Source of the DNA: Desulfuromonadales bacterium
GTDB taxonomy: Bacteria; Desulfobacterota; Desulfuromonadia; Desulfuromonadales; BM103
DNA length: 64,000 nt
Reading direction: 5' to 3'
Assembly: GCA_014860225.1 (NCBI GenBank)
Contig: JACZKE010000014.1
Span: forward strand, 62,001-126,000
Both the position numbers and the translations under genes were made by a program. Each line of letters opens with the position of its first letter. Positions within the stretch are counted from its first letter, which is position 1. This document shows positions 23,414-27,561 of this stretch, piece after piece. Below the pieces are notes generated by a model that had not been told where the DNA came from, did no database searches, and saw only the letters and a list, made by a program, of their open reading frames with translations.

Positions 23414-24436
23414 ATGGACAACTTAATGATAAACCACACCACAATTTCAAGACTCAGGACTTCTTTGTTTCTCCTGCTTCTCCCCCTGTTCATTGCTTGC
23501 CATTTACTAACAGATGAGGCAGCGGCCCAACAAATCGATCACGACAGGGCTCAAACCATTCGGCCGGAAACCACCTCGGGCCTGCAGGCTTTTTACCAAA
23601 CCCTCGACTACGATTGGATGCAGCTGGAAAAAGGAGTGCCGCCACTTATTCTCGAGAATATTCCGACTGACATAACATACTCGGTCAATACAGCCTCAAA
23701 GAAACGTACTTTTTTCATGGGGCTCTTACCGATGGTTTTACTGGCCAACCAGGAGATTGAACAAGAACGCGAAGAGATTCTGCTGATATTTGAACGGCAT
23801 AGTACCGGAACGTTGAGTTTTGACGACAGGCAACGCCTCGAAGCGATAGCCAATCGTTACGGCCTTCGCGGCCATATGCTTAATGATCATCGGATGCGTT
23901 CACGCTTGCTGCGGAGAGTTGACACACTCCCCCCGGCGTTAGTACTGGCCCAGGCCGCCAACGAATCCGCCTGGGGAACCTCAAAATTCGCACAACGCGG
24001 GAACAACTTCTTCGGCGAATGGACTTTCAGACCCGGCACCGGAATCGTGCCGGAGGATCGCCCACCAGGGGAAATCTATGAGGTGCGAAAATTCTCAAGC
24101 ATTTACGAGTCGATCCGCAGCTATATGAATAATCTCAATAGCAACGGCGCTTACCGCAAATTGCGCGACATCAGGGAAAGGCTGCGACAGGCCGAGCAGC
24201 CGGTTACAGGGATCGCTTTAACAACAGGTTTGCTGAAGTACTCGCAGCGCGGCGAGGATTACATCGTGGAGATTCAGGCGATGATTCGCCAGAACAGGTT
24301 GTCACTTGCAAACAGCGCGTTTCTGCGCCAACCGGAAACAGATGCAGCGATCAGAACCAGGACCTCAGGCAGCGGTCTTTTCTCATCGAGAAACAGAATG
24401 ATCGGTGGATTCTCCTCAATGGTGCAGAATCCATAG
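23414..24436 (+). CDS. exported glucosaminidase-domain protein (Bax/FlgJ-type cell-wall hydrolase)
   Basis: The predicted product cleaves peptidoglycan glycan strands in the periplasm. The N-terminal hydrophobic segment (LFLLLLPLFIACHLL, about residues 18-32, with a possible lipobox-like C29) should direct export. The region 165-290 is the glucosaminidase domain: LPPALVLAQAANESAWGTSKFAQRGNNFFGEW carries the catalytic glutamate, followed by RKFSSIYESIRSYMNNLN and LTTGLLKYSQRGEDYI. The order matches E. coli Bax. The C-terminal 50 residues are serine/arginine-rich. The start could also be the ATG at 23426. The gene ends inside the opposing deacetylase gene (21-bp convergent overlap). Confidence 0.82.
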   Translation: MDNLMINHTTISRLRTSLFLLLLPLFIACHLLTDEAAAQQIDHDRAQTIRPETTSGLQAFYQTLDYDWMQLEKGVPPLILENIPTDITYSVNTASKKRTFFMGLLPMVLLANQEIEQEREEILLIFERHSTGTLSFDDRQRLEAIANRYGLRGHMLNDHRMRSRLLRRVDTLPPALVLAQAANESAWGTSKFAQRGNNFFGEWTFRPGTGIVPEDRPPGEIYEVRKFSSIYESIRSYMNNLNSNGAYRKLRDIRERLRQAEQPVTGIALTTGLLKYSQRGEDYIVEIQAMIRQNRLSLANSAFLRQPETDAAIRTRTSGSGLFSSRNRMIGGFSSMVQNP

Positions 24437-25477
24437 CTGGCTGAACCAATACCAGGATTTGCCGTTGGCGTCCCTGGCCGTCAAGGTGTATTTACTGCGT
24501 CTTCCGGAAAGCGGTTGCAGCGAAGTTACCTCGTAAAGACCATCCTCTCCATTGACTTGCGTGACCAGACAATCCGACTGCCCTGGAACAAAACAGCGCA
24601 GAGAGCTGCTGTCAATATTCTGCTTCAAATAAAACCTCAGTCTTGGCGGATTATCCTCTTTAACGACCGGGCTGGAGGGTGAGACGACACGGACTGACAA
24701 CCTTTTCATAAAAAGCTTACTGCTAAACTCAGCAATAGAGGCAAACTCGCCTCCCACAGGGAAGCGTGGCAAACTGAAAAGATCCTGCCCGGCATCAACG
24801 ACCCCTGACTGCTGACCGAATGCCGCTTCGAAACCAGCCACCTTTACCAGGCTGGCCAACTCCGGCGCAAACTCACCATAGGGATAGGCAAACAGCTTTG
24901 GAGAAGAACCAAGCTGCTTCTCAAATGCTTGCTGAGAACGATAAAGGTCTTCTGATACCCGTATGACCCAATCAGCCTCACTTTCAAAAACCAACCTGTC
25001 GAGCAAATAGGCGTGACTTGCCGAGTGGTTACCAATTTCAACACCTTCGCCTTGCAACACCCTGAGTTCCTGCCAGCTGAGATACTCCCCTCCGCCAACT
25101 GAATCCGTACTTACAAAGAGTGTTGCCGGGTAACCATACTCCTTCAATAACGGCCAACCATCCGTAAAGAATGAACGATAAGCATCATCAACCGTAATCA
25201 CAGCACAGCGTTGCGGCAGGCTGACTCCCTTTTGCAATTTCTCGACGACCTCGCCGAGTTTGAGGACAGTAAACTGCTGTTGAGACAAGAGCTCAAGATG
25301 AGCGCGGAAATCCTGCAGGGAGACGTTGGTTGAGGGATAGCGTGAATCGTTAAATCGATGGTAAACGAAGACATTGGCCTGGTCAGCAAAAACAGGGCCA
25401 GCCATCAGCATCAGCAGGAGGAAAACAAGTCCGGACTGGAAAATTTTCAACAAATGGCTATCGCTTGCTTTTTTCAC
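24416..25477 (-). CDS. exported polysaccharide deacetylase-like protein
   Basis: This NodB-fold protein of about 353 residues is predicted to remove acetyl groups from a cell-envelope polysaccharide. I place the start at the GTG at 25477, giving a signal peptide (KKASDSHLLKIFQSGLVFLLLMLMAGPVFA). It overlaps the upstream Rel-like gene by 20 bp; the ribosome site is weak, so the start is uncertain. The catalytic motif is VITVDDAYRSF (metal Asp pair), and the second motif is IGNHSASHAYL (H-x3-H). A C-terminal region after about residue 250 resembles a small beta-sandwich (LTARDANGKSWYWFSQLWILHH). The two envelope genes here converge. Confidence 0.8.
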   Translation of the reverse strand: MKKASDSHLLKIFQSGLVFLLLMLMAGPVFADQANVFVYHRFNDSRYPSTNVSLQDFRAHLELLSQQQFTVLKLGEVVEKLQKGVSLPQRCAVITVDDAYRSFFTDGWPLLKEYGYPATLFVSTDSVGGGEYLSWQELRVLQGEGVEIGNHSASHAYLLDRLVFESEADWVIRVSEDLYRSQQAFEKQLGSSPKLFAYPYGEFAPELASLVKVAGFEAAFGQQSGVVDAGQDLFSLPRFPVGGEFASIAEFSSKLFMKRLSVRVVSPSSPVVKEDNPPRLRFYLKQNIDSSSLRCFVPGQSDCLVTQVNGEDGLYEVTSLQPLSGRRSKYTLTARDANGKSWYWFSQLWILHH

Positions 25478-26948
25478 TTCTCGGTTGTTTGACTTTAGAA
25501 CGCAAATAGCGGCGGATACTGTTGCGTGCACGCGGCATAACCGCCCATTCCAGCCATTTAGGCAGCACTGTTGGACTATCGGCGGTTTCGACCTCAATCT
25601 GATCTCCGTCCATCAAACGAGCCTTGAGTTGACGAGTCTTGCCGTTGATACGCACACGAACTGCATGTAAGCCCAACTCTTCATGGATATCGAAAGCAAA
25701 GTCAAGAGCACTGCTTCCTTCCGGCAGCGAACGTACATCACCCTGTGGGGTATAAACCTGAATTGAAGCAGAGGCCAGTCGCAGGCTCTCCATATCAAAA
25801 GCCGACTCACCCTCTATCAGTGACTGCATTAAATCTTCAAAACTCGAACTGCGAAATTCGAAACCAGGGGCCAGAACCCCCGATTCATTGAATCGCGACA
25901 GCTTGCGTGTGGTAATTTCAACCCGCAAGCGAATTTCACCAGCCTGCACGCTGGTCTTCAAAGCCTGATAACCGAATTGCGACGGAACATGCAGATGATC
26001 ACGTAGCTTCCCCGGAATCGGCGGGTACAGGCGATGCAGCAGACCAAGGGCGTGGTAGGCATCCATGGAACGATCGACCAGGATATCAAGGGTATAGAGG
26101 GCAGGCAGGCCACGGGCAGTCGCTCGGGCTGCGACGATGGAGAATGGCCGCCAGCGGTCTTTGACCAGGGCATCGATTTTGTAATGCTCAAGGATATTGT
26201 GAACTTCTGAACGGATGCGGCCAAGTGCGGCCTCATGCGTTTTGCGCATCTCATTCACTGCAGCTTCGAAATGCACCGCTCTGTTCGGGTAGAGGATACT
26301 CAAGGAAAGTGCGTCAAGCTCAGTGGCGACACGCCCCATGCCGAGGTGCCTGGCAAGAGGGACATAGATAGTGCGCGTTTCTTCTGCAATCAGGCGCTGC
26401 TTTTGAGGGTCAAGAGCCTGGATAGTCTGCAGGTTATCGATTCGATCCCAGAATTTCAGACAGAGGACACGAATGTCTCTTACTGCCAGAAGTACCTGCT
26501 TCCGGTACGTTTGCTCTTTCAGGACGTTACGACTGAGGAGACCATCATCGACTTTGGTCAATCCATCGACCAGCAGTCCGATTTCCATGCCAAACATATC
26601 ACTGACATTTTCAAGGGTTGTTGCAGTGTCTTCTACGACGTCATGCAGCAGAGCGGCAATGACTGAAGCGAAATCCATCCAGTGCCGGGCAGCCATATGT
26701 GCGACACGCAAAGGATGAAAGAAATAAGGTTCGCCCGTTTTGCGAACCTGCTGGCTATGGGCTTCCTGCGCAAGATTGATCGCTTTCTGCAGGCTTTCAA
26801 TCGATTCGTCGAGGACTTTCTCGCTGAGACTCCCACCATGATGCGTAACCAGTAATTCCATGATCTCATTGATCAGGCGATGCTGGCGTTTTCCATCATA
26901 ACTTTCCGGCCTGTCCGGTCGAGATATCGGTTGACGAATACTGTCCAT
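25458..26948 (-). CDS. RelA/SpoT-like protein: intact ppGpp hydrolase domain, degenerate synthetase domain
   Basis: Three parts are visible in 496 residues. The HD hydrolase domain (about 45-200) keeps its metal ligands: H78 in YFFHPLRVAH, H102-D103 in LLHDVVEDT, and D168/N172 in DRIDNLQTI. The synthetase-like region (about 250-350) has lost key residues: the F-D-L-x-A-x-R motif reads YTLDILVDR, with threonine 286 where the catalytic aspartate should be, and the basic G-loop is gone (KDRWRPFSIV). VEITTR and the PIPGKLRDH..GYQALKTS part remain. A TGS domain follows (about 394-455). There are no ZFD or ACT domains. The sequence predicts a hydrolase-only or regulatory paralogue. It lies upstream of the deacetylase gene (20-bp overlap). 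Confidence 0.85.
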   Translation of the reverse strand: MDSIRQPISRPDRPESYDGKRQHRLINEIMELLVTHHGGSLSEKVLDESIESLQKAINLAQEAHSQQVRKTGEPYFFHPLRVAHMAARHWMDFASVIAALLHDVVEDTATTLENVSDMFGMEIGLLVDGLTKVDDGLLSRNVLKEQTYRKQVLLAVRDIRVLCLKFWDRIDNLQTIQALDPQKQRLIAEETRTIYVPLARHLGMGRVATELDALSLSILYPNRAVHFEAAVNEMRKTHEAALGRIRSEVHNILEHYKIDALVKDRWRPFSIVAARATARGLPALYTLDILVDRSMDAYHALGLLHRLYPPIPGKLRDHLHVPSQFGYQALKTSVQAGEIRLRVEITTRKLSRFNESGVLAPGFEFRSSSFEDLMQSLIEGESAFDMESLRLASASIQVYTPQGDVRSLPEGSSALDFAFDIHEELGLHAVRVRINGKTRQLKARLMDGDQIEVETADSPTVLPKWLEWAVMPRARNSIRRYLRSKVKQPRSEKSKR

Positions 26949-27213: not shown

Positions 27214-27561
27214 TCAACCGGGAGGCCAACCCATATCCCGGCCACCCAACAAGTGGAAATGGATATGCCAGACGACCTGGCCACCGGCTTCGTTACAATT
27301 GTTGACAATTCGAAAACCATCCTCGGAAAAACCCATGTCGTGAGCAATTTTACCTGCGACCTGGAAAACATGGCCGATCAGTTCGTTATCTGCCGTTGTC
27401 AGGTCGAGAGTGGTACGGATGTGCTTGCGCGGCACAATCAGATAGTGTTTGGGAGCTTGAGGATTAATATCCTCAAGGACGATGACCCGGTCATCCTGAT
27501 AGACGGGCTTTCCCGGGATCTCTCCGGAGATAAGTTTACAGAAGATGCAGTTGTCCGGCAT
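27214..27561 (-). CDS. hinT: HIT family nucleotide-binding protein (HinT)
   Basis: This purine nucleoside phosphoramidase-type protein hydrolyses AMP linked to amines or lysine. The 115 residues begin with CIFCKLISGEIPGKPVYQDD, the typical HinT start, and end with the histidine triad GGQVVWHIHFHLLGGR (H-x-H-x-H-x-x). The two N-terminal cysteines (CIFC) are the possible zinc pair seen in some HIT proteins. Its start lies 26 bp inside the end of the ATPase gene, with GGAAGGAG upstream, so the two are translationally coupled. Confidence 0.93.
   Translation of the reverse strand: MPDNCIFCKLISGEIPGKPVYQDDRVIVLEDINPQAPKHYLIVPRKHIRTTLDLTTADNELIGHVFQVAGKIAHDMGFSEDGFRIVNNCNEAGGQVVWHIHFHLLGGRDMGWPPG

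Follow-up and report, generated by a model that had tools for sequence, protein, structure and literature searches.

What is the role of a second RelA/SpoT homolog (RSH) that, judged by its residues, could hydrolyze the alarmone (p)ppGpp (guanosine tetra- or pentaphosphate) and could not make it? This question is raised by P0001, a gene in a 64,000-nucleotide stretch of a Desulfuromonadales genome (contig JACZKE010000014.1, positions 62,001 to 126,000; hereafter the window). Our answer, which is drawn from sequence comparison and to which we give a probability of about 0.8, is that P0001 serves as a dedicated (p)ppGpp 3'-pyrophosphohydrolase, that the hydrolase site of its partner, the full-length Rel, is decaying, and that the two form a pair resembling RelA and a hydrolase-only SpoT. 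The observations behind this answer are the residue patterns of both proteins, the conservation of these patterns, the co-occurrence of the two genes, and the divergence of individual domains.

Hydrolase and synthetase residues of P0001

P0001 is an open reading frame (ORF) of 496 aa on the minus strand, and the gene is real, as the preliminary description of this DNA had it. Its features are the following.

25458..26948, minus strand: P0001, second RelA/SpoT homolog, hydrolase-competent by residues, synthetase-dead, stopping soon after the TGS domain
26337..26783, minus strand: HD_4 hydrolase domain, residues 56-204 (Pfam, 116.6 bits), with R69, H78, H102, D103, E106, D107, D168, and N172 present
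25896..26099, minus strand: pseudo-synthetase (RelA_SpoT) region, residues 284-351 (Pfam, 30.9 bits; cut-off, 27)
25590..25763, minus strand: TGS domain, residues 396-453 (Pfam, 51.8 bits)

The HD ligands that had been named for this protein (H78, H102/D103, D168/N172) are all in place, and R69, E106, and D107 make the set complete. Its TGS domain and its lack of an ACT domain had also been read correctly; the Pfam scan found no ACT, RIS, or any other match after TGS. The HD, synthetase, and TGS domains stand in one chain, all three above the Pfam cut-off, so that P0001 counts as a long RSH; the RelA_SpoT and TGS regions set it apart from the small alarmone hydrolases (SAHs), which have the HD domain only. 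The NCBIfam RelA/SpoT model TIGR00691 gave 341.3 bits, under its curated cut-off of 499.2, with profile positions 1-459 of 687 covered, and the SpoT equivalog model gave 267.7 against a cut-off of 947.

We surveyed catalytic residues with E. coli SpoT as the reference. Among 96 loci examined, four were too partial, and the other 92 collapsed to 72 distinct relatives, 69 of which read as 479-509 aa (the remaining three are shorter). All eight hydrolase residues (R39, H48, H72, D73, E76, D77, D139, and N143 in SpoT numbering) are kept in 72/72, and they are also invariant in a 34-sequence alignment. Held to the residues of a bifunctional Rel[HS], the family therefore passes for the hydrolase and fails for the synthetase at D259, R264, and E319, which we take to be the synthetase Asp, the motif Arg, and the catalytic Glu. 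D259 is replaced by Ala, Thr, Ser, Lys, or Asn and R264 by Glu, Asp, or Asn in every one of the 72 second copies, and E319 by Arg in all 71 with sequence there; P0001 itself has A283, D288, and Arg at these positions. The preliminary description had already called the synthetase Asp replaced. The loss is real, and only the position was wrong: the alignment gives A283, just ahead of the Pfam RelA_SpoT region, rather than T286. The loss of the GTP-contacting loop, claimed in the same place, holds in part, but the Tyr and Gln of 'GYQ', presumably the guanine side of the synthetase site, are retained in 68/72 and 67/72 second copies, respectively. Relatives of 59-89% identity retain the P0001 pattern across Desulfuromonadales, and on these alignments it is far from chance.

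Two further residues may bear on substrate and regulation. The Tyr of the hydrolase substrate loop is kept in 68/72 second copies. The TGS His that matches H432 of E. coli RelA is kept in 69/69 relatives with sequence there, and ordinary Rels keep it too.

Distribution of the second copy

We searched 107 Desulfuromonadales genomes of at least 85% completeness and found the second copy in 103: 102 with a match of more than 400 bits, plus a cut-off N-terminal piece in G053. It was not found in the other genomes of the 107 (G007, G049, G052, and G061). In G052, a small HD_4 protein (L240, G052:C73) is encoded by a 181-aa open frame with HD and ED motifs intact. Across the phylum, 7 of 296 genomes matched P0001 at 1e-100, all of them Desulfuromonadales. 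When contigs were scanned for close relatives, the hits came from Desulfuromonadales and deltaproteobacterial genomes, with two weak Gracilibacteria matches in addition; Desulfuromusa kysingii, which has a close relative of P0001, belongs to Desulfuromonadales by taxonomy.

The full-length Rel of the same genome

A complete Rel had been expected elsewhere in the genome harboring P0001 (G000; completeness estimate, 100%), and one was found outside the window. This protein, P0004, has 714 aa with HD, RelA_SpoT, TGS, RIS, and ACT domains. Every synthetase residue checked is intact, and the R/SGEPY substrate loop of the hydrolase site has three residues fewer than that of relatives, with the loop Arg and Tyr lost. 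In total, G000 has two HD_4 domains and five RelA_SpoT domains. Given three extra RelA_SpoT loci and no third HD_4 domain found, P0001 may be the main (p)ppGpp hydrolase of this genome.

The three further RelA_SpoT open frames lie at C4:5220-5585, C57:8854-9174, and C6:346977-347375 (450, 391, and 387 aa), and may encode small alarmone synthetases or proteins of the CapRel type.

Rels of the same genus (by genome codes) carry other lesions. G011 has HA in place of HD and His in place of the loop Arg; in G013, HE replaces HD and AE replaces ED; and in G012 and G016, EN replaces ED. G010, G014, and G015 retain all eight hydrolase residues. In the draft genome G011, the reading frame of the long Rel breaks in two around residue 305 (L103, G011:C86).

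Decay of the Rel hydrolase across Desulfuromonadales

Long Rels were sought in 136 genomes of the order, found in 121, and read in 116 (112 first, four later). At least one of the eight hydrolase residues is lost in 77/116, and 39/116 keep all. Among the first 112, 38 are intact and 74 have lost at least one residue; 59 have lost at least three, and 35 have lost a metal ligand. Three of the four read later are broken and one is intact. The 14 synthetase positions are unchanged in all order Rels read, except for three lost to the G011 frameshift.

For 94 of the 107 genomes, those with a Rel in the first 112, we compared the Rel with the presence of the second copy. Of these 94, 59 combine the second copy with a broken Rel and 31 combine it with an intact one. 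In the remaining four the second copy was not found; their Rel is broken in G049, G052, and G061 and intact in G007.

We next compared divergence between domains, using the first 112 Rels of the order, 30 of the class, and 28 of the phylum. The ratio of HD to synthetase divergence is 1.44 in broken Rels, 0.87 in intact Rels of the order, 0.78 in the class, and 0.87 in the phylum; the HD domain outpaces the synthetase domain only in broken Rels. Pairwise dN/dS (nonsynonymous to synonymous substitution rates) by domain was dropped, because synonymous sites were saturated, many pairs were undefined, and broken Rels were faster in all domains. A tree of the columns after the HD domain gave at least 10 loss clades if no regain is assumed, three of them in the family of G000; this figure is rough, because the tree nested the outgroup Rels within the order and supported its largest loss clade, of 46 Rels, at 36%.

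The preliminary description had proposed a hydrolase-only, TGS-containing paralog that could tune ppGpp or degrade a related nucleotide. A hydrolase-only second copy is what the residues indicate, but tuning alone misses the decay of the partner. Since that partner has lost hydrolase residues in G000 and in 77/116 Rels of the order, the second copy probably replaces the Rel hydrolase rather than merely tuning it.

Broken Rels and their partners outside the order

A different order of the same class supplied 58 genomes, of which 57 have Rel; 47 Rels were read (30 + 17), and 47/47 keep the eight hydrolase residues. A phylum sample of 59 genomes had Rel in 57, and all were read. This sample includes G000 and G168 (one of the 30), and G131, from the other order of the class, was read with it. 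Besides G000 and G168, the phylum Rels are intact in 28/28 of one set and 21/23 of another, and broken in 4/4 of the third. Outside Desulfuromonadales, there are thus 96 distinct intact Rels and six broken ones, the latter all from the phylum sample. D259 and E319 of the synthetase are kept in all 96 and all six; in 8/28 phylum Rels, one or two further synthetase positions differ, and some of the 23 show such variation as well.

Four of the six broken Rels (G143, G177, G157, and G120) come from genomes in which a second long RSH had already been seen, and 4/4 of these second copies are HD-intact and synthetase-dead. For G127 and G164, the broken Rel was seen first, and a subsequent HD_4 search then brought up a second HD protein in each, with an open frame of more than 700 aa. 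These proteins (723 aa, L424 at G127:C1; 713 aa, L425 at G164:C22) are also HD-intact and synthetase-dead. They score better with P0001 than with P0004 and have the same Asp before the conserved Asn, and they are possibly, by sequence likeness, long-form relatives of P0001. All six genomes with a broken Rel in the phylum sample therefore carry a hydrolase-only second copy. The same HD_4 search found no second full-length HD protein in eight intact-Rel genomes, although one of them carries an HD fragment of 146 aa.

We also sampled the orders of G120 and G143 (15 and 16 genomes, the four broken Rels G143, G177, G157, and G120 included). Rel is HD-broken in 31/31 and keeps D259 and E319 in 31/31. 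The second copies read are HD-intact in 29/29 and synthetase-dead in 29/29; the 29 do not include the second copies listed for G309 and G490, nor a third, partial match in G486. They have 697-728 aa, with one of 555 aa, and, unlike P0001, most keep the C-terminal part.

A mirror case was seen in another lineage of the phylum, in G163 (L299, G163:C79:6300-8300), in which a second long RSH of 504 aa has the HD domain destroyed and the synthetase set intact, beside an intact Rel.

Alternative functions of P0001

Some small HD hydrolases act on (p)ppApp or NADPH. P0001 may thus hydrolyze mainly another nucleotide, with the decay of Rel unrelated to it. The best solved relatives are Rel proteins, and the AlphaFold2 (AF2) model (mean predicted local distance difference test [pLDDT], 74) resembles known Rels in their catalytic halves (7oiw; Z, 32.1; root-mean-square deviation [rmsd], 2.8 over 319 residues), which favors the (p)ppGpp hydrolase. 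In support of another substrate, MESH1-NADPH, a (p)ppApp hydrolase, and SAHs are among the structures that match the fold of the HD part. The position preceding the conserved Asn also differs, being Asp in 72/72 second copies and His in control Rels. Against this, the full hydrolase residue set is kept, and a broken Rel accompanies a hydrolase-only partner in several lineages, whereas the 96 Rels elsewhere are intact. We therefore consider another main substrate improbable.

A purely regulatory P0001, a pseudo-RSH binding either (p)ppGpp or Rel and modulating it, is less probable still. The dead synthetase region is indeed constrained (HD/synthetase divergence ratio of the second copies, 0.82), and the guanine-side Tyr-Gln is mostly kept. 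A protein that is not an enzyme, however, would hardly hold eight hydrolase residues in 72/72 relatives while its partner loses its own. Equally improbable is that P0001 is a redundant extra hydrolase beside Rels that drift and keep enough activity: 38/112 Rels are intact though most such genomes have the second copy, and 11 have lost a single residue, but 59 have lost three or more residues and 35 a metal ligand, and the 96 Rels outside the order have undergone no such drift.

Several observations weigh against a dedicated (p)ppGpp hydrolase with a decaying partner. The Asp in place of His beside the conserved Asn means that substrate preference could differ, and the substrate-loop Tyr is absent from 4/72 second copies (three Phe, one Cys). 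The 11 broken Rels (of the first 112) that lost just one residue, often D to N, may keep activity. Decay is not obligatory, since 31/90 two-gene genomes have an intact Rel site. Conversely, Rel is broken in G049 and G061 with no second copy found and in G052 with only a small HD protein; all three are drafts. In most intact controls, the second copy was called absent on a Rel search at E 1e-50 or 1e-60, in which those of G127 and G164 had gone undetected; the HD_4 search covered 10/96 intact-Rel genomes (G131, G168, and the eight above). The association between second copy and broken Rel is given as raw counts uncorrected for kinship, and most genomes are drafts.

Origin of the second copy

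Trees group the P0001-type second copies with those of the other two orders (support, 94; 99/92), with a long-branch warning in both cases; in one of them the second copy, on a long branch, falls apart from both E. coli SpoT and the Rels of the phylum. BLAST ranks P0001 closer to ordinary Rels than to those other second copies, and the approximately unbiased (AU) test did not reject a join of the second copy with the Rels of its order (p = 0.088). Because trees, BLAST, and AU test conflict, and because the second copies of G127 and G164 resemble P0001, we do not claim a duplication specific to the order.

Gene neighborhood

The two genes next to P0001 are the following.

27214..27561, minus strand: HIT-domain protein, upstream neighbor, in 57/62 related loci
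24416..25597, minus strand: polysaccharide deacetylase, downstream neighbor, in 56/62 related loci

The deacetylase ORF as listed overlaps the P0001 gene, and its true start is probably further in. Both genes flank the second copy in most loci, and a functional link is not obvious. Other neighbors in the 62 loci are a glucosaminidase-domain protein (50) and an S4/FtsJ (TlyA-like) protein (49). The occurrence across the order and the shared neighbors are consistent with vertical inheritance of the second copy in Desulfuromonadales. The nearby mazG gene had been pointed out as another (p)ppGpp-linked gene; this link found no support, MazG being present in 10/62 loci, although many of the 62 stop short of it. 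A PADLOC search gave no result, and promoter and terminator matches near P0001 showed no excess over shuffles.

Discussion

The closest parallel in function may be the SpoT[Hs] of Moraxellaceae. According to excerpts of the report on A. baumannii SpoT (SpoTAb, PDB 7qpr; PMC9974481), substitution of Y51, E82, D83, or N147 abolishes hydrolysis, and the Core and TGS keep the HD site in its active shape. P0001 carries the equivalent Tyr, Glu, Asp, and Asn. Like the SpoTAb of these excerpts, it combines an intact hydrolase and a dead synthetase with a retained pseudo-synthetase and TGS, and it is partnered with a long RSH, which in the case of SpoTAb is synthetase-only. Unlike P0001, SpoTAb is described there as having HEL, ZFD, and RRM and as having lost the tRNA-contacting TGS His (PMC9974481). 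The same loss was expected for P0001 and discarded, as the His is kept. A compact state locked by TGS, as in SpoTAb, was likewise set aside: the model is poor at the Core-TGS junction (pLDDT <50 at 380-411), and the whole-chain rmsd to 7qpr is 19.5. E. coli SpoT is not the nearest relative of P0001 in the tree.

Second long-RSH copies in this group have been noted before. Atkinson et al. (2011; PMC3153485) list RshD[HS] in four deltaproteobacteria, including Pelobacter carbinolicus, with unsupported placement, as well as hydrolase-only SpoT in Moraxellaceae. RshD, matched here by its description there, is probably the P0001 family or another of the second-copy families seen here. It is written [HS] there (PMC3153485), whereas the residues of the second copies here indicate a hydrolase only, and the Rels beside them often have a broken hydrolase site. 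Searches of the open-licence literature, covered mostly by title, brought up no title on synthetase-dead second copies or hydrolase-dead Rels from these bacteria. Compared with the SAHs (MESH1, RelH, and the P. aeruginosa SAH), which are hydrolase only with a similar HD fold, P0001 adds the pseudo-synthetase and TGS.

How might the two proteins work together? P0001 would be a derivative of a long RSH in which the dead synthetase domain is retained as a structural or regulatory module. Full-length Rel would sense uncharged tRNA on ribosomes and make (p)ppGpp, and P0001 would remove the alarmone. The hydrolase-only copy would have come first; once a second hydrolase was present, the hydrolase site of the partner Rel would have been free to decay, and this appears to have happened repeatedly in the order, including in G000. 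Rel drifting toward a synthetase-only enzyme, together with P0001, would amount to a division of labor like that of RelA and SpoT, with several stages visible. Rel contacts ribosomes through its C-terminal domains (PMC9974481, in the excerpts cited above), and P0001, which lacks them, should escape shut-off of hydrolysis by stalled ribosomes. As it retains the TGS His lost in SpoTAb, control by uncharged tRNA is conceivable.

More tentatively, and with somewhat less than even odds in our estimation, hydrolase-only RSHs may act as ratchets throughout the phylum: once one is established, Rel would tend to lose its hydrolase repeatedly and by different lesions, giving several RelA/SpoT-like pairs. 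P0001 would then be the minimal form (HD, pseudo-synthetase, and TGS), which would not dock on ribosomes and, with its tRNA-contacting TGS His kept, may hydrolyze independently of them until uncharged tRNA switches it off.

The finding bears on annotation: in these bacteria, the label 'bifunctional Rel' has probably been given to many synthetase-only proteins, and many of the second copies that look like RelA/SpoT probably act as hydrolases. It also bears on how the stringent response evolves. The gammaproteobacterial split into RelA and SpoT is the standard case of one bifunctional stringent-response enzyme becoming two. The pairs described here share with beta- and gammaproteobacterial RelA/SpoT that one long RSH is HD-dead and the other hydrolyzes, or would do so by its residues. 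They differ in that the partner is the ordinary Rel of the lineage, at many stages of decay, and in that the hydrolase of Desulfuromonadales is short and without C-terminal domains. An outcome of the RelA/SpoT type thus seems to have been reached in other lineages and to different stages, and one genus mixes intact Rel sites with shortened or mutated ones. With such natural variants at hand, one could test in which order the events took place and what they cost the enzyme.

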